This document shows positions 1 to 49,602 of a stretch of DNA of 64,000 nt, one piece after another. The stretch spans positions 372,001 to 436,000 of the forward strand of contig NZ_NCSY01000002.1 in the NCBI RefSeq assembly GCF_002156875.1. Reading direction: 5' to 3'. The stretch comes from Bacillus sp. EAC (GTDB lineage Bacteria > Bacillota > Bacilli > Bacillales > Bacillaceae_G). The position numbers and the translations under genes were made by a program. The notes beneath the pieces were generated by a model that worked only from the letters and a program-made list of their open reading frames with translations, had not been told where the DNA came from and made no database searches. Each line of letters begins with the position of its first letter. Position 1 is the stretch's first letter.

Positions 1-281
1 AATGATATTTCAATGTCATATTCCTCACTAATCAATTTTTTATAGATTATGCGGGGACTAATAAATCGTAAAACCCTATAAATTCCTTTATATTGTTTTG
101 CAAATAAAAAAACATGTTTTACCGTCTTAGGTAACTCATGTTTAAGCTCTCCACCGTCAAATAAAGTCATAACGGTTATATTGTATTTTTTGGAATCAAG
201 ACTATTTAATATGTCGAGTAATAGTACTTCAACTCCACCCATTACCATCCGATCAAGTACAAATAATACCTTTTTTTTCAT
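1..281 (-). CDS. Glycosyltransferase, GT4-like, N-terminal part (runs off window start)
   Basis: Only the first 93 codons are in the window. They begin at an ATG at 281 that overlaps the stop of the upstream GT2 gene (TAATG). The protein starts MKKKVLFVLDRMVMGGVE, which is the usual first strand and glycine-rich loop of GT-B glycosyltransferases (GT4 type, 'GG-E' donor-side loop). The close coupling makes it the last visible gene of the exopolysaccharide operon. The acceptor and sugar cannot be told from this fragment, and the catalytic C-terminal half lies outside the window. Confidence 0.7.
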   Translation of the reverse strand, partial: MKKKVLFVLDRMVMGGVEVLLLDILNSLDSKKYNITVMTLFDGGELKHELPKTVKHVFLFAKQYKGIYRVLRFISPRIIYKKLISEEYDIEIS

Positions 282-1282
282 TACTTTAATCCTACCCTTC
301 TTTCTATTAAGTTTTTAATAGGATAAAAACTCATGGTCAGTTGAACTAACCAATACCCAGGTAGAGATAACATAATTATAAATTTACTCAGCAATGAAAT
401 TCTTTGATTCAGTAGATTATGATTTGACTTCTTTAGAATACTTTTAGCAAGGGCTTTTGCTGTTTCTTTATGAAGTGTTGTTTTATTAATTGCATTTCCA
501 GCGCTAATGTCAAATAACATCCTACATTTTACATTTAAAAGCCTTGCTTCTAAAGCTTCATTGTACATTGTTATTTGCCTTTCTCCAAGAAATCCTTTAA
601 TCTCTTCTAATGCATCAATTTGATCAAACTGTTTTTCACTAAATCCTTTTCTTAAAATACTTCCATCACGCTGAATGTAATAGTATAAAGGTTCATCAAG
701 ATAGACAACTCTATTGGCCTTAAAAAATAATTTATAAGTAGTAAATACATCTTCATACATTTTACCAATAGGGTATCTAATGTCTTCAAATAACTCTGTT
801 TTATAGAGTTTATTCCATGCATAGTCATGTAATTTTTTACTTGAGATCAGTTCCTCTAATGCCCCTTGAGTTGAATAATGAATTATTTCCTTAGAGTTTG
901 ATAAAACTTCCCTATTAGAATATTTTCTAATATATCCACAAACTGCTATATCACATTGGTTATCATTGCTGATTTCATATAATTTTTCATACATTTCCTC
1001 TTTTATATAATCATCACCATCAACAAATCCAATGTAATCGCCGGTTACTATTTCTAATCCTGCATTCCTTGCAGAACTTAGTCCACCGTTTGGTTTATCA
1101 ATCACAACAATTCGATTATTATTTTTCGAGAAATTTTTGATTAAGTTAAGAGTATTATCAGTAGACCCATCATTGACAACTATTATTTCTAAATCTTTAT
1201 ACGTCTGTGAAATAATAGATTCCAAACATTTTTCTATATATTTTTCAACATTATATGCTGCTATTATTACACTTATTTTCAT
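281..1282 (-). CDS. Family 2 glycosyltransferase
   Basis: A 333-residue GT-A enzyme expected to add one sugar to the lipid-linked exopolysaccharide repeat unit at the inner face of the membrane. The N-terminus has the GT2 signature: a first strand with VIIAAYNVEKY, then VNDGSTDNT for nucleotide binding, and the acidic metal site as FVDGDDYI near residue 90. A hydrophobic stretch near the C-terminus (about 300-320) may hold it at the membrane. Its ATG overlaps the TGA of the preceding GT2 gene (ATGA), with GAGGG upstream, so the two are translationally coupled. The family assignment is firm; the sugar transferred is unknown. Confidence 0.88.
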   Translation of the reverse strand: MKISVIIAAYNVEKYIEKCLESIISQTYKDLEIIVVNDGSTDNTLNLIKNFSKNNNRIVVIDKPNGGLSSARNAGLEIVTGDYIGFVDGDDYIKEEMYEKLYEISNDNQCDIAVCGYIRKYSNREVLSNSKEIIHYSTQGALEELISSKKLHDYAWNKLYKTELFEDIRYPIGKMYEDVFTTYKLFFKANRVVYLDEPLYYYIQRDGSILRKGFSEKQFDQIDALEEIKGFLGERQITMYNEALEARLLNVKCRMLFDISAGNAINKTTLHKETAKALAKSILKKSNHNLLNQRISLLSKFIIMLSLPGYWLVQLTMSFYPIKNLIERRVGLK

Positions 1283-2292
1283 CTAAACCCTCTTTTCAAG
1301 CTTAATATTCTTGCAAATAATAATATTATTACACTATTTTTTGTCCTCATTATTGCTTTCAAAATATAGGTCATTGGATCAGAAGCACTGCATTTCTTTA
1401 ATTTTTTATCTTCCTTTATCAAAACGTTTTTAATGAATAATATTTTTTCTTTATTTGATAACTTACAAGTTTTTTTATATAAATCAATAAAACTTGCCAT
1501 AAAATCTCTTACAAACAATCGATCTAGCATAGATTGGTTTTCAGATAGTACTCCCCAATAATCTAGCGTTTCCTTTATTTGATTCAACAGGGAGATACGT
1601 ATTTCTAATCTATTAGGTCTAAACCTGGATACGAGACCTTCTCCTTTTTTTACCGTGTAATTTACTAAAGCTTGATTACACACCTTAACAAAACTTATTG
1701 ACTTAACAACTAATAAATTAAAGCTTAAATCCTCACCTATATCTATCTCTGTTGGAAATTTTATTTTGTTATTCTTTATATAACTTGTTAAGTAAACTTT
1801 ATTCCAAGGAGCATTAATCATTTCATTACCGATAAGAGATACTGCAGTATTTCTAAATTCATATTCATTACTAAAATTTGCACTCTCATTAAGAGGAATT
1901 CTACTAGCTTTAAAAACTCCATCACGAACTATGTTATAGCCAAATATAAGTAACTGCGTATCCTTTTCAATTTCAGAAGTTATTACGTTAAAGAAATTAA
2001 CACTATAATAATCATCTGCATCAAGGAAGGTAATATATTTTCCTTTTGCTTGTTCAATACCTAAGTTTCTAGCGCAGCTCACTCCAGAATTCTCAATATT
2101 ATAAAGTTTTATCCTTTGATCATCTAAGGATATTTTGTTGCATATTTCAAAGCTTTGATCAGTTGAACCGTCATTAACAATAATAATTTCAAAATTTTTT
2201 ATGTTTTGAGATGTAATACTTTTGATTGCTCGGCTAATTGTGTGTTCAGCATTATATACTGGTATTACAATTGAAAGAAATGGAGTTTGCAT
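1279..2292 (-). CDS. Family 2 glycosyltransferase
   Basis: A second GT2 enzyme (337 residues). It has SIVIPVYNAEHT at the N-terminus, VNDGSTDQS near residue 40 and FLDADDYY near residue 92 as the metal and donor site. A good ribosome site (AAAGGAG, 8 bases before ATG) fixes the start. It follows the polymerase-like gene by about 50 bases and overlaps the next GT2 gene by four bases, so it is in the same transcript. It resembles its neighbour in fold but not closely in sequence beyond the family motifs, which suggests a different sugar or linkage. The substrate is not predictable from sequence alone. Confidence 0.88.
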   Translation of the reverse strand: MQTPFLSIVIPVYNAEHTISRAIKSITSQNIKNFEIIIVNDGSTDQSFEICNKISLDDQRIKLYNIENSGVSCARNLGIEQAKGKYITFLDADDYYSVNFFNVITSEIEKDTQLLIFGYNIVRDGVFKASRIPLNESANFSNEYEFRNTAVSLIGNEMINAPWNKVYLTSYIKNNKIKFPTEIDIGEDLSFNLLVVKSISFVKVCNQALVNYTVKKGEGLVSRFRPNRLEIRISLLNQIKETLDYWGVLSENQSMLDRLFVRDFMASFIDLYKKTCKLSNKEKILFIKNVLIKEDKKLKKCSASDPMTYILKAIMRTKNSVIILLFARILSLKRGFR

Positions 2293-2339: not shown

Positions 2340-3569
2340 TTAACCACTTTTATCTTCTTCACTCTTCAGGCTCAGATAATAGAATAAGATATAGTAAAAC
2401 CACAGAACCGTTCTTCGTAAATCATTTATTCCAAATCCGTATACTACTAAAGCAATTACAGCGCATAAAATATAAACATTTATAGAAGTAGCTTTCGTTA
2501 ATTTTGAGATTAAAAGTATATATGCAATACCTCCCAAAATTCCTCCTTGAGTTAGTATTTGAAGAAACGTATTATGAGCTTCATAGCCAAAAAATACTTT
2601 AGTTCCACTAAAAGAACCCGGACCTAACCCAACAATTGGTGAATGTTCCCAAGCTTTTATAGCATTACTCCAAATTACAAGCCTATTTTCGCCGTTTGAA
2701 TCACCCTTAAAAAAATCATTTACTAAAACCAATAAACTCTCATAATTGAAAATAAGGATTAAAACAATCAGACAAAAGAAAAATAAGATTATACTTTTAG
2801 GTCTATTTAATTTTTTTAATACTTCCAAAACCTTTAATATACAAAATATAAAAGTTGAAAGTGCCCACGCCGAAACTAACGTAGATGAGGTTGTAGCTAA
2901 CCCGATCGTTATGCATAACAAAATACCAAAGAGTGATAAAACTTTAATCATTATTCCTTTTTCTTTCGCTACTATATATAGCCCAATAAATGGTAAAGGT
3001 GCAACAAAGTAGGCAAACTGATGATAATCATTAGCAAATGGAGAAAATATATCCGCTCCTCCATAGGTTAAAGAAAAGCCGGAAAAACTTCTCAGTCCAA
3101 CTAAATAAAGGAAGTACAGAAACCCTATGCTAATTAATCCTCCAAAATAAATAAAACGGATTAACCTATATAAATAAGAAAAGCTGCTTCTTTTAAAAGC
3201 TAGTTCAAATGTAAAACATAAAAACAAGATTACGGTATAAGCCATAAGATCAAAATGGATCAATTGGGGCTTAATCTCTAAAAATGTATTAACTGTATAA
3301 CCAATCATAATTATACTTATATAGTAGAGCCAAAATATTGTGAACATATGCTTTTTAAATGATAATAGAACAGTTTCTTGACCGTTTATTTGAGTAACAC
3401 AAAAAAACAGTAAGATAACTTCACCTATTCCAAACATACCAAATCTCAGTGATGTAAAACCAAAGAACAATAACATTCCCAAGATTAATATATTTTGAAA
3501 ATTAATTGTGATATCCTTCTGTTGTATTAATTTATTATCCATATATAGGTCATATTTTAATTTATACAT
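2340..3569 (-). CDS. Wzy/O-antigen-ligase-like membrane protein (exopolysaccharide polymerase candidate)
   Basis: A 409-residue polytopic membrane protein with about 10-12 hydrophobic segments. The large extracytoplasmic loop in the second half has the O-antigen ligase/polymerase family pattern: RLVIWSNAIKAWEHSP followed by GLGPGSF and then AHNTFLQ-LTQGG. Within an exopolysaccharide operon the expected role is joining repeat units on the outer side of the membrane. The ATG at 3569 overlaps the end of the upstream GT4 gene by eight bases and has only a weak ribosome site. A second ATG nine codons in is possible but no better. Polymerase against ligase cannot be decided here; no separate Wzx flippase is visible in the window and it may lie further downstream. 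Confidence 0.8.
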   Translation of the reverse strand: MYKLKYDLYMDNKLIQQKDITINFQNILILGMLLFFGFTSLRFGMFGIGEVILLFFCVTQINGQETVLLSFKKHMFTIFWLYYISIIMIGYTVNTFLEIKPQLIHFDLMAYTVILFLCFTFELAFKRSSFSYLYRLIRFIYFGGLISIGFLYFLYLVGLRSFSGFSLTYGGADIFSPFANDYHQFAYFVAPLPFIGLYIVAKEKGIMIKVLSLFGILLCITIGLATTSSTLVSAWALSTFIFCILKVLEVLKKLNRPKSIILFFFCLIVLILIFNYESLLVLVNDFFKGDSNGENRLVIWSNAIKAWEHSPIVGLGPGSFSGTKVFFGYEAHNTFLQILTQGGILGGIAYILLISKLTKATSINVYILCAVIALVVYGFGINDLRRTVLWFYYILFYYLSLKSEEDKSG

Positions 3570-4668
3570 AAACTTCTACTAGTCTTTCTATTACATTATC
3601 TACATCATAATCTTTACTGATTTTATAGGCATTAACTCCCATAGACTCTAATAACTCTCTGTTATTAAAAAGGATTTCTATTTTTTTAGCAGTTTCAATT
3701 GAATCATTAACATTTACTAAATACCCATTAACATTATCTTTTATTAGATCCTTTATACCTCGTATATCCGTACCTATAACTGGCTTCTCACAAGCCATTA
3801 ATTCCATTATATTTCTTGGTAGTCCTTCTCTAAATGACAATAATATACCAACGTCACAAGCTATAATAAGTTCATTAATGTCACTTCTATTTCCCAAGAA
3901 CTGTATGTTTCCACTTAACTCTCTATCTAAAATATCTTTCTTTAGTTCCTCAAGTAATGGCCCATCACCAGCACAAATCACCTTAACATTTATTCCTCTC
4001 TTTTTAAGAATATCGAGAGCATTAATCATTTGCTTATGATTTTTATTTTGATTAACTTCAGCAATCATCAGAATAACAAAATCATCAATTGCCAAATTCA
4101 ACTTTTTTCTTGTCGCACTTTTATCAAATAAACTAAGATTATATGAGTTTAAATTTACACCCACACCATTGACCTTATGTGTTTTCTTAACTTTAAACTT
4201 TCTAGCTCTTTCATAATCCTCAGAGTTCATTGTTATAATTGTATCAGTAAAAATAGCCATTATCCTTTCAATAGGATAATAGATACTCCAGTTTACAATC
4301 GGTGCTCCCTTATAAAAGTGAAATCCATGTACAGTATAGATCGTTTTTAGTTTAGGAAATTTAACTTTTAAAAGTCTGCCGTACAAGGAAGCTATAGGTG
4401 TATGAACATGAACAATATCATAATGATTTTCAGACTGTATTTTTATAAGATCTTGAAAAGCTTTAATATTCTTAGGATGTAGCGGGTTCCTAGTAAACGG
4501 AATGTCAAAAATTTTTACACCTTTATCTAAAAGTGTTCTATCGACACTTATATCAACTGAACAAGCGCAGTCAACGATGTTTCCCTCTTCAATAAGCTTT
4601 TCTATATGTGGAACTAAAAAGGCATTTATTGTTCTGCTTAAGGTCGTTATATATAGTATTTTTTTCAT
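3562..4668 (-). CDS. Family 4 glycosyltransferase, EpsD-like
   Basis: A 368-residue GT-B enzyme. The N-terminal half starts KKILYITTLSRTINAF and the C-terminal half holds the GT4 donor site with an E-x7-E motif in FREGLPRNIMELMACEKPV (about residue 285-300). I recall a very similar N-terminus in B. subtilis EpsD, and the position after EpsC and GtaB agrees. The ATG at 4668 is preferred over an in-frame TTG at 4680 because GGTG lies at proper spacing before it, although the site is weak. It overlaps the next gene, showing operon membership. The likely role is transfer of an early sugar onto the undecaprenyl-linked unit; the sugar is not known. Confidence 0.85.
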   Translation of the reverse strand: MKKILYITTLSRTINAFLVPHIEKLIEEGNIVDCACSVDISVDRTLLDKGVKIFDIPFTRNPLHPKNIKAFQDLIKIQSENHYDIVHVHTPIASLYGRLLKVKFPKLKTIYTVHGFHFYKGAPIVNWSIYYPIERIMAIFTDTIITMNSEDYERARKFKVKKTHKVNGVGVNLNSYNLSLFDKSATRKKLNLAIDDFVILMIAEVNQNKNHKQMINALDILKKRGINVKVICAGDGPLLEELKKDILDRELSGNIQFLGNRSDINELIIACDVGILLSFREGLPRNIMELMACEKPVIGTDIRGIKDLIKDNVNGYLVNVNDSIETAKKIEILFNNRELLESMGVNAYKISKDYDVDNVIERLVEVYV

Positions 4669-4692
4669 AATATTCACCAACTTTGCTAAATA

Positions 4693-5577
4693 TTAGTTTG
4701 TGTATACTTTGTTTTTTTCTACCAAGTCAGATAAATATTTCAATAATTCATCCTTTAGTTCATCACGTTGTAGTGCAAACTCTGTCATTGTTTTGATAAA
4801 TCCTATTTTTTCTCCTACATCATAACGAACACCTTCAAAATCATATGCATAAACGTCTTCGTACTGATTTAGGCCTTTAATAGCATCTGTAAGCTGAATT
4901 TCTCCTCCTGCTCCAGGCTCCTGGCTATTTAGTATTTCAAAAATTCTTGGATTAAGAATATAACGCCCCATAATGGCAAGATTTGATGGCGCATCTTCTT
5001 TATTTGGTTTTTCTACTAAATTACTAATCTTATATAAATCATTACTAATTAAAACTCCATCCACTATTCCGTATCTCGAGACATCTTCATTAGGTACCGT
5101 TTTGACCCCTATAATAGATGCTTGATGTGCATCGTATTTTTCGATCATTTGCTTTAAACAAGGTTTTTCAGCTTGAACTATATCGTCACCTAATAAAACC
5201 GCAAATGGCTCATTACCAATAAACTTGCGAGCGCACCATATTGCATGGCCCAATCCTTTAGGTTCTTTCTGTCGGATATAATGAATATCCACCATTTGAG
5301 ATGACTTTTGAACCTCGGTTAATAAGTCAAATTTTCCCTTGTCAAACAGATTCTGCTCTAACTCAAATGAATGGTCAAAATGATCTTCAATAGCCCTTTT
5401 TCCCTTTCCAGTCACAATTATAATATCCTCTATCCCTGATTCAATTGCTTCTTCAATAATGTATTGAATTGTAGGTTTGTCCACAATTGGTAACATTTCC
5501 TTTGGCATAGCCTTTGTTGCCGGAAGAAATCTTGTTCCTAATCCAGCTGCTGGTATAATGGCTTTTTTTACTTTCAT
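4693..5577 (-). CDS. gtaB: UTP-glucose-1-phosphate uridylyltransferase
   Basis: A 294-residue GalU/GtaB enzyme that makes UDP-glucose from UTP and glucose-1-phosphate in the cytoplasm. The N-terminus has the nucleotidyltransferase signature [19 protein letters not shown]. Further on are [20 protein letters not shown] and LLGDDIV, and a late [10 protein letters not shown] supplies the conserved lysine region. The ATG is preceded by AAGGGGCG. It lies 20 bases after the EpsC-type gene and supplies the sugar donor to this operon. A close paralogue sits at 42135-43031 beside UDP-glucose dehydrogenase, so this copy is probably dedicated to exopolysaccharide. The symbol is by homology; which copy is the housekeeping one is not clear. 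Confidence 0.92.
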
Positions 5578-5597: not shown

Positions 5598-7424
5598 TTA
5601 ACTAGAAATTGAGATTAGCTTTCGAGACTGCACTCGATTATTTGCAATATCTAGTAACTTATTCTTAAGAACTTCTTTATCTTCTTTGGCATACGTTAAA
5701 ATTAATTCATTGATTTCTTCAATTAATAGGTTTGCTGTTTTACCAATATAAATTTTTGGATAAACTTGCTTGTCATATATTTCTTCCTCATTTAAAAGTT
5801 CTTCAAAAAGCTTTTCTCCAGGTCGAATTCCAGTAAATTCAATTCCAACTTCTTCAACTGAATTGCCAGAAAGCTTTATTAAATTTTTGGCAAGATCTAC
5901 AATTTTGACAGGCTCACCCATGTCTAAAATAAAGATTTCTCCACCTTTGGCTAGTGCACCAGCCTGGATAACTAATTTTGATGCCTCTGGAATTGTCATA
6001 AAGTATCTGACCATATCGGGATGTGTTACAGTAACTGGACCACCTTTTTCAATTTGTTTTATAAAAAGTGGAATCACGCTACCACGGCTTCCTAATACGT
6101 TTCCAAAGCGAACAGCAACAAACTTTGTCTTGCTGTTTTTATTCATATTTTGGATCATCATTTCCGCAAGCCTTTTTGTTGCTCCCATAACACTTGTTGG
6201 ATTAACTGCTTTATCAGTCGAGATCATCACAAATGTTTCGACACCAGATAATTCAGCTGCAGTTGCAACATTTACGGTTCCAATTAGGTTATTTTTAACA
6301 GCTTCTTCTGGATTTCGTTCCATTAATGGTACGTGTTTATGAGCAGCTGTATGATAGATTACATTTGGATGATATTTCTCCATAACCGATTTCATTTTTA
6401 TCTCATCTTGTAAGTCAGCAATTTCTGTAACAAATTTAATCGCACTATTTCCAAAGTGTTCTTTTAATTCCATTTCAATCGTATAAATGCTATTTTCACC
6501 ATGACCCAATAACACTAAAGTTTTTGGATTAAATTTTGAAACTTGGCGACATATCTCCGATCCAATTGATCCACCTGCACCAGTAACTAAAACAACTTTG
6601 TTTGTAATTGAATCTGAAATCTTTTCAATATCCAATTCGATAGCTTCACGACCTAATAAATCATCAACTTGCACCTCTCGGAATTGATTTACAGAAACCT
6701 TTCCCGTGACAAGGTCCTCTAACATTGGAAGAATCTTTGTTTGAGCCTTTGTTTTCGTACACTCTTGAAAAATCATATTTAATCCCTTTTTGCGAAGAGA
6801 TGGTATTGCAATAATGATGTTCTCAATATGATATTTTTTTACAGCAGCTTCTATTCGATCAACTCCACCTACAACCGGAATTCCCAGAATATGAAGATTT
6901 TGTTTTTTTACATTGTCGTCAATAAATGCGACAGGGAGTAACTCTGAATCAATATTATTTAATAATTGTCTGGCAACCATTGTTCCAGCAGCACCTGCAC
7001 CAATAATAAGTGTTCGCTTTTTATTCACAACGTTATTATGAGATGCGTCCCTATATACCCTCCAGCATAGACGTGCTCCACCGATTAACAAAATATGTAT
7101 AAACCACGTTACTGTAAGAATACGGATATACGTTTCAGAAATAAAAAGTTCCTGTACAACAGCAGTACACAATATTGAATAAGTAATAGACTTTAAAATA
7201 ATAATTAACTCTCCGATACTTGCGTACTCCCATGCCTTCTTATATAACTTAAATAAAAAAGAAAATAAATGATGGCTTAATAATAATGCGATCGAGCTAA
7301 TGACTATCGGAGCAGTAAAAATATCGATAGTTGCATTTACTAGAAATCGACTAAAGAAAATGGAGGTTAATACAATAAAAGAATCAATAAAAATAATAAA
7401 AGAAACTCTCTGCTTGAATGTCAT
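5598..7424 (-). CDS. epsC: Membrane UDP-sugar 4,6-dehydratase, EpsC/CapD/PglF type
   Basis: A 608-residue protein of the full-length FlaA1-like family. Four membrane segments fill residues 1-120. A first Rossmann domain follows ([14 protein letters not shown], about 140-153), then a short-chain dehydrogenase domain ([15 protein letters not shown], about 280). The active site reads [17 protein letters not shown], with M-x3-K where most SDRs have Y-x3-K; this is the known pattern of membrane 4,6-dehydratases acting on UDP-GlcNAc. It probably makes the first committed amino/deoxy sugar of the polymer. The ribosome site CAGGAG lies just before ATG. It is the first coding gene after the EAR-like RNA, exactly as in the B. 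subtilis eps operon. Confidence 0.88.
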
Positions 7425-7649: not shown

Positions 7650-7766
7650 TAGGCATCTAACCTGCCCTCACACCACACTATCGACGACTTGCGTCTAAGG
7701 TTTTTCAACCCACAGCATGACCGAGTGCCTTCATTGATAACGGTAAGAAGGCATCACCTGCGACTT
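7650..7766 (-). ncRNA. EAR element (eps-associated RNA), candidate
   Basis: This stretch of about 115 bases between epsB and epsC is far more GC-rich than its surroundings and highly foldable in minus-strand reading. GCCTTC and GAAGGC close one stem around 7727-7754. GGGTT-GAAA-AACCT (around 7698-7711) and GAC-GCAA-GTC (around 7685-7696) are short stems with GNRA tetraloops, and GGCA...TGCC closes a 3' hairpin (7652-7668). There is no open reading frame. The known EAR element sits at exactly this place in Bacillus eps operons and promotes processive antitermination so that RNA polymerase reads the long operon. Position and structure agree; I could not align it to the family model, so the assignment is by context and fold. 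Confidence 0.72.
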
Positions 7767-7778
7767 ATTAATGAAATG

Positions 7779-7820
7779 AATAACCTTATTGTTCTTAATC
7801 AAGAACGATAAGGTTATATT
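7779..7820 (-). terminator. Hairpin between epsB and the EAR-like RNA
   Basis: In minus-strand reading a 15-bp stem AACCTTATCGTTCTT / AAGAACAATAAGGTT with a four-base loop and one wobble pair. The following bases (ATTCATTTCATT) are not a clean T-tract, so termination is probably partial. It lies before the EAR-like RNA in the transcript, so it would limit expression of everything after the kinase gene. Confidence 0.55.
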
Positions 7821-7848: not shown

Positions 7849-8508
7849 CTACTTTCTATCGTTTAAAATTACACCCATTAATTTAGTACTATCAGATAAT
7901 ATTTTTTGTGCATGGATTACATCATTACTTTTTGTTTTTCCCCATTGAATGACTAATATTACTCCATCACAATGATTAGCTATGATTTTTGTATCTGTAA
8001 ACTCTAAAGCTGGAGGAGAATCAATCAAAACCAAGTCATATTTTTCTGTCGCGGTCTCAATTAATGTCTTCATCAAATGTGATCCCAACAGGTCAGCCGG
8101 ATTAAACGGGTCAGGACCACTTGTTAATAAATCTAACCCTATTATTTCTGATTCGATTATAGATTCCTCTAGTATTGTTCTACCTAACAGCACGCTACTC
8201 AAGCCAACATAATTACTTTTTTTAAATGAAAAATGAAGTGTTGAGTTTCTTAGATTCGCATCGATTAGAAGTACTTTTTTCCCTAATTGCGCTAATGAAA
8301 TTGCAAAGTTTGCAGCCGTAGTCGATTTCCCTTCTCCATAATTTGGAGAAGTTACTATTAATGCTTTGCTTTCTTGATCCTTTATTGACGAGAGAAAATT
8401 TGTACGAATTGAACGATATTCTTCTGAAATTTTACAACCTTTATTATTTGCAGTTACTAAATTTACTTTATTAGTTGAGTGAGATGATTTTCTGTTCATT
8501 ATTCGCAT
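7849..8508 (-). CDS. epsB: Bacterial tyrosine kinase of exopolysaccharide synthesis, EpsB/CpsD type
   Basis: A 219-residue cytoplasmic P-loop kinase that pairs with the membrane modulator encoded just upstream to control polymer synthesis. Walker A is SPNYGEGKSTTAANF (about residue 50-64), Walker A' is LLIDANLR (about 79-86) and Walker B is LVLIDSPP (about 159-166). The start ATG at 8508 has a strong AAGGAGG six bases upstream and overlaps the modulator gene by 38 bases. The protein ends LNDRK and lacks the C-terminal tyrosine cluster that BY-kinases usually autophosphorylate. No such tail is seen in the bases after the stop in any simple shift. Catalytic fold is clear; regulation by the usual tail is not. 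Confidence 0.88.
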   Translation of the reverse strand: MRIMNRKSSHSTNKVNLVTANNKGCKISEEYRSIRTNFLSSIKDQESKALIVTSPNYGEGKSTTAANFAISLAQLGKKVLLIDANLRNSTLHFSFKKSNYVGLSSVLLGRTILEESIIESEIIGLDLLTSGPDPFNPADLLGSHLMKTLIETATEKYDLVLIDSPPALEFTDTKIIANHCDGVILVIQWGKTKSNDVIHAQKILSDSTKLMGVILNDRK

Positions 8509-9193
8509 AAGTATCCTCCTTAGCCTGAATTCTTAACATTTCACTCTTTTTAAGTACTGTATTTTTTTTATTCATTTTTGAAATGACACCAAAAACCGGA
8601 GTTCCTAATAAAACCTCAACATCATTTTCGGATCTTACAGTGTCATCAAGAAAGTTTAATAGAAAAACGAAACCCACACCTGCAATTACACCTGCTAATA
8701 ATCCAAGAAGTATTTTCTTCGTATAATCTGCGTTTATAGGACTATTATTAATCTGCGCATCTGATAATAGTCTTGTATCTTTAAATCCTAAAATTTTTGG
8801 TATTTGATTTACAAAGACGTTAGCTGTGGTATCTGCAATTTCCGCTGCTAACTTAGGGTCCGAATAAACAACCGATATTCTTACAATTGATGAACCTCCT
8901 ATACTTTCAGGATAAATTTGTTTACTTAAGTCTTCTGAAGATATATTTAGATTCAAATCATTAACAACATTTTGTAGTAATGAAGGTTCTTTAATCATGA
9001 CCAAAAGTGTATTCATCATTTCAGGTGAGGTTGCATTAACTATCAGTTTAGAAGATGTTTCATATAGCTTTTTTGTTAAAAATACGCTATAAACTCCACC
9101 AAGTGTTGAAAAGAAGATAGAAAAGGCAAAAATTATCCAAATCCGTTTCTTCATAAGTACCATAATTTTTTTTATACTTAATTCGTTCTCCAC
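8471..9193 (-). CDS. epsA: Chain-length determinant / tyrosine kinase modulator, EpsA/CapA type
   Basis: A 240-residue Wzz-type membrane protein. One transmembrane segment lies near residues 19-40 (WIIFAFSIFFSTLGGVYSVF), an extracytoplasmic domain follows, and a second segment near 165-185 (KKILLGLLAGVIAGVGFVFL) precedes a short cytoplasmic tail that would activate the kinase EpsB. The proline usually seen before the second segment is present in the NNSPINADYTKK stretch. GTG at 9193 with GGTGG upstream is the better start; a GTG at 9205 is possible. It is the first gene of the exopolysaccharide operon and lies about 90 bases after a good sigma-A promoter. Confidence 0.85.
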   Translation of the reverse strand: MENELSIKKIMVLMKKRIWIIFAFSIFFSTLGGVYSVFLTKKLYETSSKLIVNATSPEMMNTLLVMIKEPSLLQNVVNDLNLNISSEDLSKQIYPESIGGSSIVRISVVYSDPKLAAEIADTTANVFVNQIPKILGFKDTRLLSDAQINNSPINADYTKKILLGLLAGVIAGVGFVFLLNFLDDTVRSENDVEVLLGTPVFGVISKMNKKNTVLKKSEMLRIQAKEDTYANNEQKIISLN

Positions 9194-9292
9194 ATTTCCC
9201 ACCACTTTTTTTTTATTTTGTTCTTTTTAACGAACGTACGATTAAAAAAAATTTGCTTTGCTTAAAAAAGAATAAAGACTGGGTATGTCTAC

Positions 9293-23411: not shown

Positions 23412-23445
23412 AAAAAAGACTGTTAGCAAAATGCTAACAGTCTTG
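23412..23445 (-). terminator. Intrinsic terminator after the cold-shock gene
   Basis: In minus-strand reading AAGACTGTTAGCA-TTT-TGCTAACAGTCTT then TTTTG, directly after the cold-shock stop. Confidence 0.9.
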
Positions 23446-23462
23446 TTCACTTAAGCGTGAAA

Positions 23463-23663
23463 TTATAATTTAACTACGTTTTCAGCTTGAGCGCCACGGT
23501 TACCTTGAGTGATCTCAAAGCTTACTTTTTGGCCTTCTTCAAGAGATTTGAAACCGTCGCCTTGGATTGCTGAGAAATGTACGAATACATCGTCTCCACC
23601 TTCAACAGCGATGAATCCGAAACCTTTTTCTGCGTTAAACCATTTTACTGTACCTGTGTTCAT
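23463..23663 (-). CDS. csp: Cold-shock protein, CspA/CspB family
   Basis: A 66-residue single OB-fold protein that binds single-stranded RNA and DNA and acts as an RNA chaperone. It shows the standard [17 protein letters not shown] start with RNP1 (KGFGFI) and RNP2 (VFVHF), and ends [17 protein letters not shown]. The ATG at 23663 has GGAGG eight bases upstream; the GTG-type extension of five codons upstream is not used by the family. The leader is short (about 60 bases) if the promoter at 23731-23739 is right. It is monocistronic. Confidence 0.95.
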
Positions 23664-23730
23664 AATACGAACCTCCATATAATCCTGTTTTTTTTACACT
23701 TAATGAGTACTGTTAAGAAAAAATACACAC

Positions 23731-46037: not shown

Positions 46038-46208
46038 GTGCCATATCTAACTACTTTTATGTAAATATAAAAATGCTAATATATTTTTCTTGCATTTTTT
46101 ATTCATACAAAATATAATCATTTCTACAAGCTTGTTAGATAAAAAAAACAATTAAGGCCAAAAAAATATTAACTTTAAAATTTAATTTCTGTTTAAATAA
46201 ATTTCTTT

Positions 46209-46520
46209 GCGATGATGAAGAAGAGTAGATTATATGAAAGTTTCAGAGAGCTGACGGTTGGTGCGAGTCAGTACGGACATATTTTTGAATGGGCTTCTGA
46301 GCAACTAGACCGAACCATTACAGGTGCAGTAGGCTCTGGCGGATGTCTCACCGATAAAAGAGACAGGTATTCAAACTTTTGTTTCGATACTGCTTTTTGT
46401 CACAAAGTAGTTCAATTCATTTGTTTTGATACTGTAAAGTGAGTCTAAATCGGTTTTAGACTAATTAAGGTGGCACCACGGGAGTCCTCGTCCTTTTTAT
46501 AAGGCGGGGATTCTTTTTTT
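46209..46520 (+). promoter_or_regulatory. T-box riboswitch, tryptophan (UGG) specifier
   Basis: A complete T-box leader. Stem I has AGTAGA near its base, CAGAGAGC on the 5' side, GGTTGGTGCGAG and the closing GGGCTTCTGAGC on the 3' side; directly before the latter is GAA-TGG, so the specifier codon is UGG (46290-46292), read by tRNA-Trp. The T-box core AGGTGGCACCACGGG lies at 46468-46482; its UGGC bulge pairs with GCCA, fitting the G discriminator of tRNA-Trp. The terminator GAGTCCTCGTCC / GGCGGGGATTC with a T-run ends at about 46520. Uncharged tRNA-Trp should let transcription through to the OppA-like gene. Confidence 0.92.
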
Positions 46521-49410: not shown

Positions 49411-49602
49411 AGATTTCCATTCTAGGATGCTCGCTTTCTAGTGGGGCGTACGTTGAACCTCCTCCTGGGCCACACGATGTGGGTCATGCATTCGTTACGG
49501 CAGTAAGTCGTGTGGTATTAGAATGTATACCTTTTTTGAACACTGAGGGGTCTCATCTTCCCGCTATTCCCACAGGAGCCTTCCACCTTTCGCACCAATC
49601 AT
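49411..49602 (-). repeat. Dispersed intergenic repeat, full-length copy 2
   Basis: The reverse complement of this region matches 25648-25837 along its whole length: GGCTCCTGTGGGAATAGCGG near one end, CATGACCCACATCGTGTGG in the centre, ACGTACGCCCC and GAAAGCGAGCATCCTAG near the other. The ends GATTGG / GGAAATC correspond to the inverted ends of copy 1. Several differences show that it is old. It lies in the gap between spoIID and murA. Confidence 0.8.

Follow-up and report, generated by a model that had tools for sequence, protein, structure and literature searches.

In this study, we found that a short intergenic element in the window, a 64,000-nucleotide stretch of contig NZ_NCSY01000002.1 from Bacillus sp. 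EAC, is a standard EAR (epsC) RNA that very probably works as a processive antiterminator in an eps operon of about 20 kb, and that its 5' domain is very likely homologous to a leader domain carried by phages. The window EAR is one more instance of a known regulator and is ordinary in itself. If the link to phages is true, a phage family sharing this 5' domain connects EAR to mobile elements and suggests its origin, and the shared domain points to the part of EAR that contacts RNA polymerase. The EAR or epsC RNA was reportedly the subject of a 2010 paper by Irnov and Winkler.

The covariance model RF01735 matched positions 7650-7759 of the minus strand over its full length (model 1-117) with 110.1 bits (E-value 3e-18), the gathering score being 42, and this was the sole match in the genome at E-values up to 1. 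The element lies in the epsB-epsC gap of a biofilm/capsule polysaccharide operon, with a kinase-like gene upstream and an epsC-like gene downstream (Table 1). In covariance model, structure, pseudoknot and position between the kinase gene and epsC, no difference from the EAR/epsC RNA was found. R1, a model built from EARs and four phage sequences, gave 115.4 bits on the element, whose sequence is part of the R1 alignment. An earlier note, made from the sequence alone, had placed an EAR-like RNA between epsB and epsC, and this identity is borne out by the RF01735 score, the covariation and the fitting position; the check that it had suggested, a search with the Rfam epsC/EAR model, was passed clearly. 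Its compact, structured, non-coding element does exist on the minus strand, but the end that it gave, 7766, is 7 nt too far upstream.

Table 1. Features of the window and of the plasmid locus L127, with strand and supporting evidence or remark
Feature	Position	Strand	Evidence or remark
EAR (epsC) RNA element	7650..7759	-	RF01735 covariance model
5' pseudoknot, AGGU (7756-7759) with ACCG in the P1 loop (7741-7744)	7741..7759	-	
P1 hairpin, 7747-7753 with 7726-7732, UAUCAA in loop	7726..7753	-	covariance model, covariation
P2 long helix, 7714-7725 with 7667-7679, encloses P3 and P4	7667..7725	-	95.3% of cells paired
P3 hairpin, GAAA loop	7698..7711	-	covariance model
P4 hairpin, GACG-CAAGU-CGUC	7683..7695	-	covariation
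P5 3' hairpin	7650..7664	-	covariance model, covariation
17-bp hairpin, 94% complementary, 4-nt loop	7780..7817	-	not listed as terminator-like
Wzz chain-length determinant (EpsA position)	8471..9205	-	PF02706
Capsule tyrosine-kinase-like ATPase (EpsB position)	7849..8508	-	PF13614
EpsC-like nucleotide-sugar dehydratase	5598..7424	-	PF02719
GalU-like nucleotidyltransferase	4693..5577	-	PF00483
Terminator-like hairpin inside glycosyltransferase gene	4253..4286	-	EAR+3364 (3.36 kb)
Glycosyltransferase group 1	3562..4680	-	PF00534
Wzy-type polymerase/ligase	2340..3569	-	PF04932
Two family-2 glycosyltransferases	281..2292	-	PF00535
Plasmid EAR	L127:1501-1647 = CP053689.1:88128-88274	-	

Single-sequence folding of the element gave a minimum free energy of -33.8 (z -0.82), and 45 of 200 shuffles were at least as stable. 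Since this fold does not stand out, fold energy was dropped as evidence, and the case for the window EAR is made by the covariance model and by covariation. In A1, an alignment of 32 sequences (28 EARs and four phage relatives), the covariation score was 0.350 against a shuffled mean of 0.163, and structures slid along the alignment reached 0.134 at most. A lack of covariation among homologues had been named as grounds for rejecting the element; none of 500 shuffles reached the observed score. With the pseudoknot included, 91.8% of cells were paired in A1 compared with 81.7% in shuffles, P1 being one column out of register in the four phage rows and counted there as unpaired. Helices P1-P5 and the 5' pseudoknot are backed by covariation. 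P4 (columns 83-86/92-95) was paired in 100% of cells with double changes in three of four pairs, and the pseudoknot (columns 2-5/17-20) in 96.9% with double changes in two of four; the outer pair of P5 was unpaired in 14 of the 32 rows, and P3 varied in length and sequence among relatives. Three of the four pseudoknot pairs form in the window copy, the outermost being an A-G mismatch. According to the accessible part of PMC2864571, a pseudoknot in the epsC motif had been predicted earlier by W. Winkler. Of two GNRA-capped hairpins described in the earlier note, P3 indeed carries a GAAA loop, but the family structure resolves the second, which could pass for GAC-GCAA-GUC, into GACG-CAAGU-CGUC. 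The 17-bp hairpin of Table 1 (7780-7817, minus strand) lies some 20 nt ahead of the EAR, and a portion of its 3' strand is able to pair with the P3 region as well.

EAR is described as a processive antiterminator of exopolysaccharide operons in the accessible parts of PMC7858274 and PMC8955417, and the former states that the Bacillus subtilis EAR antiterminates several intrinsic terminators in the distal eps operon as well as heterologous ones. By analogy with this family, the window EAR would be transcribed within the eps operon and fold into the 5' pseudoknot and P1-P5; the folded RNA would presumably remain with the transcribing RNA polymerase, and the polymerase would then ignore intrinsic terminators farther along the operon of about 20 kb. 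That the RNA in the epsB-epsC gap merely stabilises or processes the mRNA would be in line with the general knowledge that structured intergenic RNAs often process or protect mRNA, and with the 17-bp hairpin just upstream, but the effect of the B. subtilis EAR on heterologous terminators (PMC7858274, in its accessible part) and a pseudoknot with conserved loop bases, which exceed a plain stability hairpin, make such a role very improbable.

The operon itself offers possible targets for the proposed antitermination. An operon of at least 7 kb beyond the element had been claimed, which understates its extent: same-strand ORFs run beyond 19 kb downstream of the EAR in the contig, the identities of genes to the left of the window being assigned by eye. 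The gene at 4693..5577 is presumably galU. Besides the hairpin inside the glycosyltransferase gene, an intergenic hairpin at EAR+15102 (15.1 kb downstream) is a second candidate terminator. Over the 19 kb past the EAR, terminator-like hairpins numbered nine on the sense and 13 on the antisense strand (shuffle mean 5.4), and strong ones (at least 13 pairs) two on each (shuffle mean 0.2, maximum 2), which is no sense-strand excess for this operon. These counts weaken the case for the two candidates, 3.4 and 15.1 kb downstream, as possible read-through targets.

Ordinary EARs are widespread. In an order-wide survey, RF01735 scored above its cutoff in 254 of 397 genomes, and in the window's genus it did so in 13 of 13. 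By their names, the closest epsC relatives indicate a Gottfriedia-type genome. In 76 of 80 named relatives of epsC, from Bacillus-like and Paenibacillus-like genera among others, R1 located an EAR upstream of the gene, a result that, given the sequences from which R1 was built, is not independent of the survey of 397 genomes; the misses were L053, L066, L073 and L079, with L053 cut by the contig end. Polysaccharide genes were found within 1.5 kb of the EAR in 50 of 53 loci checked, and none at L015, L029 and L127. Of the 13 genomes in the genus, nine (at L128-L135 and L137) have a further EAR copy that is 213-223 nt long, bears an insert of some 107 nt in P3 and adjoins galU-type genes of another capsule region; the genome of the window lacks this insert-bearing copy.

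L127 lies on a 250-kb plasmid that was deposited under the name Arthrobacter citreus NEB 577, and it carries a full EAR (RF01735 106.6 bits, above the cutoff) whose P3 has a 36-nt insert; G337, a genome with the same plasmid, is placed in the window's Bacillaceae genus. There, a response regulator is followed by the EAR, some small ORFs and a run of conjugation genes that includes a T4SS coupling protein (PF02534), an annotated VirB4 and a lysozyme/NlpC peptidase (PF13702, PF00877). The accessible part of PMC8955417 describes conAn of plasmid pLS20, composed of the ConAn1 protein and the conAn2 RNA, as an antitermination system at the head of the conjugation operon. Both conAn and the L127 EAR head a conjugation operon of Gram-positive bacteria, where antitermination by the latter is proposed, but conAn has a protein part whereas L127 has a full EAR; the two are likened by description. 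These gene contexts also bear on the proposal of a metabolite riboswitch in the epsC leader that senses an exopolysaccharide intermediate. The epsC motif was among the riboswitch candidates of Weinberg 2010, yet the accessible part of that paper cites a personal communication on antitermination activity, so that the motif may bind no metabolite (PMC2864571). Moreover, the conjugation genes, and the phage late genes that follow a related form, have no obvious sugar metabolite in common, and we regard a riboswitch as extremely improbable.

Relatives of EAR were also found in phages. The two weak RF01735 matches in the genus (32.9 and 29.4 bits) both precede phage genes, a small terminase (PF10668) and an HNH endonuclease, and three loci came from a pattern search in viral contigs. 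L139 has, in this order, an ArpU-family regulator (TIGR01637), EAR, HNH endonuclease, and small and large terminase, and RF01735 scored 79.5 bits there, over the cutoff of 42. Scores at L136 (32.9 bits), L141 (29.8), L172 (29.4) and L138 (29.4) were below the cutoff, and L171, L173 and L176, also among the eight phage loci tested, were unlisted at E-values up to 1. RF01735 matched none of 19 ArpU loci at its cutoff, nor did any Rfam family on the leaders of those 19 loci or on L149, the sole leader carrier recognised among 11 terminase loci. Because most of those tested fail the cutoff, the phage leaders are not filed under RF01735; they have the 5' domain in common with EAR and may work in a similar way.

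In further phage contigs the module consists of a hairpin, GGGAGA, P1 with a UAUCAA loop, and then ACUCG, and in the phage leaders the 5' pseudoknot strand, P1, the UAUCAA loop and ACUCG follow one another as they do in EAR, some long-type phages having an altered ACUCG. Upstream of the module, repeats of roughly 10 bases in tandem and a TAAGAT-like box were seen by eye, so the phage RNA may start there, from a putative promoter. In A6, which comprises 11 phage modules, the GGGAG strand has a second potential partner in a strand immediately upstream, and for this reason the phage leader may be a switch. Whereas EAR sits in polysaccharide operons, its phage relatives stand by ArpU and before late genes; only L139 passes the Rfam cutoff among those tested, and some have further EAR parts besides the common 5' domain. 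These retain CUUAG, a P4-like hairpin and other 3' parts, and their hosts belong to three families (that of the window, that of G390/G290/G310 and that of G394). The element of L139 (11649-11761, minus strand) is a mosaic that looks like the product of recombination at ACTCG: over the first 60 nt it agrees at 57 positions with L176, a phage RNA, and over the last 79 nt it agrees at 75 with L123 and L125, which are eps EARs of hosts.

Several candidates were set aside. When R1 was run on 14 loci of L139 terminase relatives, L142 proved to be L139's own phage again, and the match at L149 (12 bits, E 0.5) was, on reading, a second leader type. The pattern candidates L157, L158, L160, L161, L164, L167 and L168 (viral) and L174 and L175 (genomes) lay inside long ORFs or had no ArpU. 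In blastn against INPHARED, neither the phage leaders L136, L149 and L139 nor the window EAR had a match.

The size of the phage family was assessed with R2, a model made from 11 phage modules only, on 80 viral loci picked by their ArpU protein (the best 80 of 146 relatives). A plus-strand match downstream of ArpU at E-values up to 0.1 was found in 58 of the 80, four of which are R2 training sequences (L177 = L139, L178 = L136, L184 = L163, L200 = L156). The best off-target control score, 18.8 bits, was exceeded by 56 of the survey matches, and the best minus-strand match in the survey was 17.8 bits. Weaker matches (E 0.12-0.61) were obtained for L190, L191, L193, L195 and L199, in which the core was located by eye in L190 and by the parser in the other four, and for the L179 contig the core is present in the piece L141. 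Sixteen of the 80 contigs had no leader; among these, L245 holds only 3 nt after ArpU and others also end early. The 72 cores parsed from the ArpU and other searches reduce through kinship to 40 distinct ones, in four of which (L230, L222, L212, L231) parsing misplaced the 5' strand.

The order-wide R2 search gave 26 matches in 21 of 397 genomes, a figure that is not a count of phage carriers because the strict filters lose weak matches; ArpU lay within 1.5 kb of 14 matches and not of the other 12. L278 and L279 were chance-like matches, and L276 is an ordinary eps EAR. In phi105, which was reached through tblastn with ArpU only (four records matched), the core GGGUGACGCGCCUAACCCUUAUCAAUGGCGU lies downstream of ArpU and R2 scored 24.9 bits (E 2.5e-5), the leader occupying about 1280-1480 of L257, with GGGU and ACCC strands; in rho14 and vB_BteM-A9Y the core was found by pattern. 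The parts of these three records that were examined have no RNA annotation at the core, and small hypothetical ORFs overlie it in phi105 and rho14.

Whether the domain is truly shared with EAR was judged chiefly by where matches fall, since single scores are low. On 53 EAR loci (225.6 kb) unseen by the model, 52 of the 55 R2 matches at E-values up to 10 fell on an EAR 5' end, and 52 of the 53 loci were matched, L015 being missed; at the window locus R2 matched 7721-7782 with 21.9 bits (E 0.0037). On 80 epsC loci (1.70 Mb), 39 of 51 such matches did so, the nine best included (top score 29.6 bits, E 0.00025), and 37 of the 76 EARs there were unmatched. Many EARs in these placement tests are near-identical to one another. 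Conversely, R3, a model from 25 EAR 5' ends only, placed 31 of 33 matches at E-values up to 10 on the phage core in 83 phage loci, with a best score of 19.2 bits (E 0.033), and matched once (10.7 bits) in 203 kb of control DNA.

The phage similarity might instead be convergence, or a DNA operator for ArpU, with no shared RNA. Off-target R2 scores reached 18.8 bits in control DNA and 22.4 bits inside epsC genes; in the genome of the window, a match of 24.2 bits was antisense to a gene and the window EAR was unlisted in that search; in a mixed control, R2 matched the EAR in just three of six EAR loci; and the single E-values of R3 are weak. Within the phage set the paired positions barely vary, which makes covariation uninformative, and pseudoknot pairing lay within shuffles (0.950 against a mean of 0.930 and a maximum of 0.956). 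Against this stand the placement in both directions, the mosaic in L139 with its high RF01735 score, and the fourth pseudoknot pair, which is A-U in 36 of the 40 distinct phage cores as parsed and U-A in phi105 and in 32 of 36 EAR cores, a swap as expected of kept pairing. We therefore consider an origin without shared RNA unlikely, and our confidence that the EAR 5' domain and the phage leader domain are homologous, already good, rose a little further with the R2 test on the 80 epsC loci and the R3 control. The 5' domain (GGN pseudoknot strand, P1, UAUCAA loop, ACUCG) is likeliest to be the polymerase-contacting part of EAR, because it is common to the phage leaders and a full EAR also precedes the plasmid conjugation operon.

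From this homology, and by analogy with EAR, antitermination by the phage leaders appears somewhat more probable than its opposite. In Bacillaceae phages including phi105, an ArpU-driven late transcript would fold an EAR 5' domain within its first bases, and this leader would grip RNA polymerase and carry it past terminators into the genes for terminase and structural proteins, much as put acts in phage HK022. The put RNA has a two-hairpin fold. Like the proposed phage leaders, it is an antiterminator without a dedicated protein and has a similar leader position, but its host belongs to a different phylum, and the likeness is one of description. A 2022 paper, in its accessible part, names put and EAR as two purely RNA-based processive antiterminators, EAR being found in exopolysaccharide operons (PMC8955417). 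ArpU (TIGR01637) differs from the leaders in being a protein, named a transcriptional regulator, whose gene lies upstream of them. The element might have been exchanged among phages, conjugative plasmids and hosts, as the L139 mosaic suggests, and we lean slightly toward the idea that mobile elements possess a wide family of antitermination leaders, in which phage RNAs carry polymerase through terminators, and that EAR is its domesticated branch. Literature searches turned up no paper linking ArpU to antitermination, or to late genes and terminase. Phage or plasmid EARs are unmentioned in the accessible parts of PMC10653937, PMC7858274, PMC12691694, PMC2864571 and PMC8955417; the founding paper and most of the subscription literature were outside this scope. 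With phi105 and B. subtilis, both RNAs are open to study in one host.

Terminator-like hairpins were also counted past the phage cores. Under relaxed criteria, 120-520 nt past the core, they occurred in 19 of 44 loci on the sense and five of 44 on the antisense strand, compared with 11.7% of shuffles; a few of the sense matches lie inside the leader, and one contig counts twice, as L184 and L163, with no hairpin in either. Under strict criteria (120-620 nt), the numbers were nine of 42 (L189 at a wrong site) and three of 42, with 1.4% of shuffles. Kinship among the phage loci inflates the sense-strand count. These sense terminators fit leaders that let polymerase through terminators.

Some minor observations were made in the phage contigs and in the window. 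By eye, a strong terminator-like hairpin with a T run lies right upstream of the phage core in L219 (about 3500-3575), L235 and L240, between the ArpU-side repeats and GGGAGA. L143, a phage without an EAR-type core, has a GC-rich and perhaps structured stretch at about 4000-4180, between a regulator-like ORF and late genes, in which no Rfam family matched at its cutoff. A c-di-GMP-I riboswitch (75.5 bits) is present at 801-884 on the minus strand of L233, a viral contig with an ArpU leader. In the window, a cspA thermoregulator match (RF01766, 82.6 bits, just over the cutoff of 78) at 23413-23714 on the minus strand is perhaps a cold-shock gene matched mainly through its coding sequence. The window also holds two Bacillaceae-1 RNAs (RF01690; 25716-25782 on the plus strand and 49469-49537 on the minus strand) and a T-box leader at 46203-46498 on the plus strand (RF00230, 125.3 bits).
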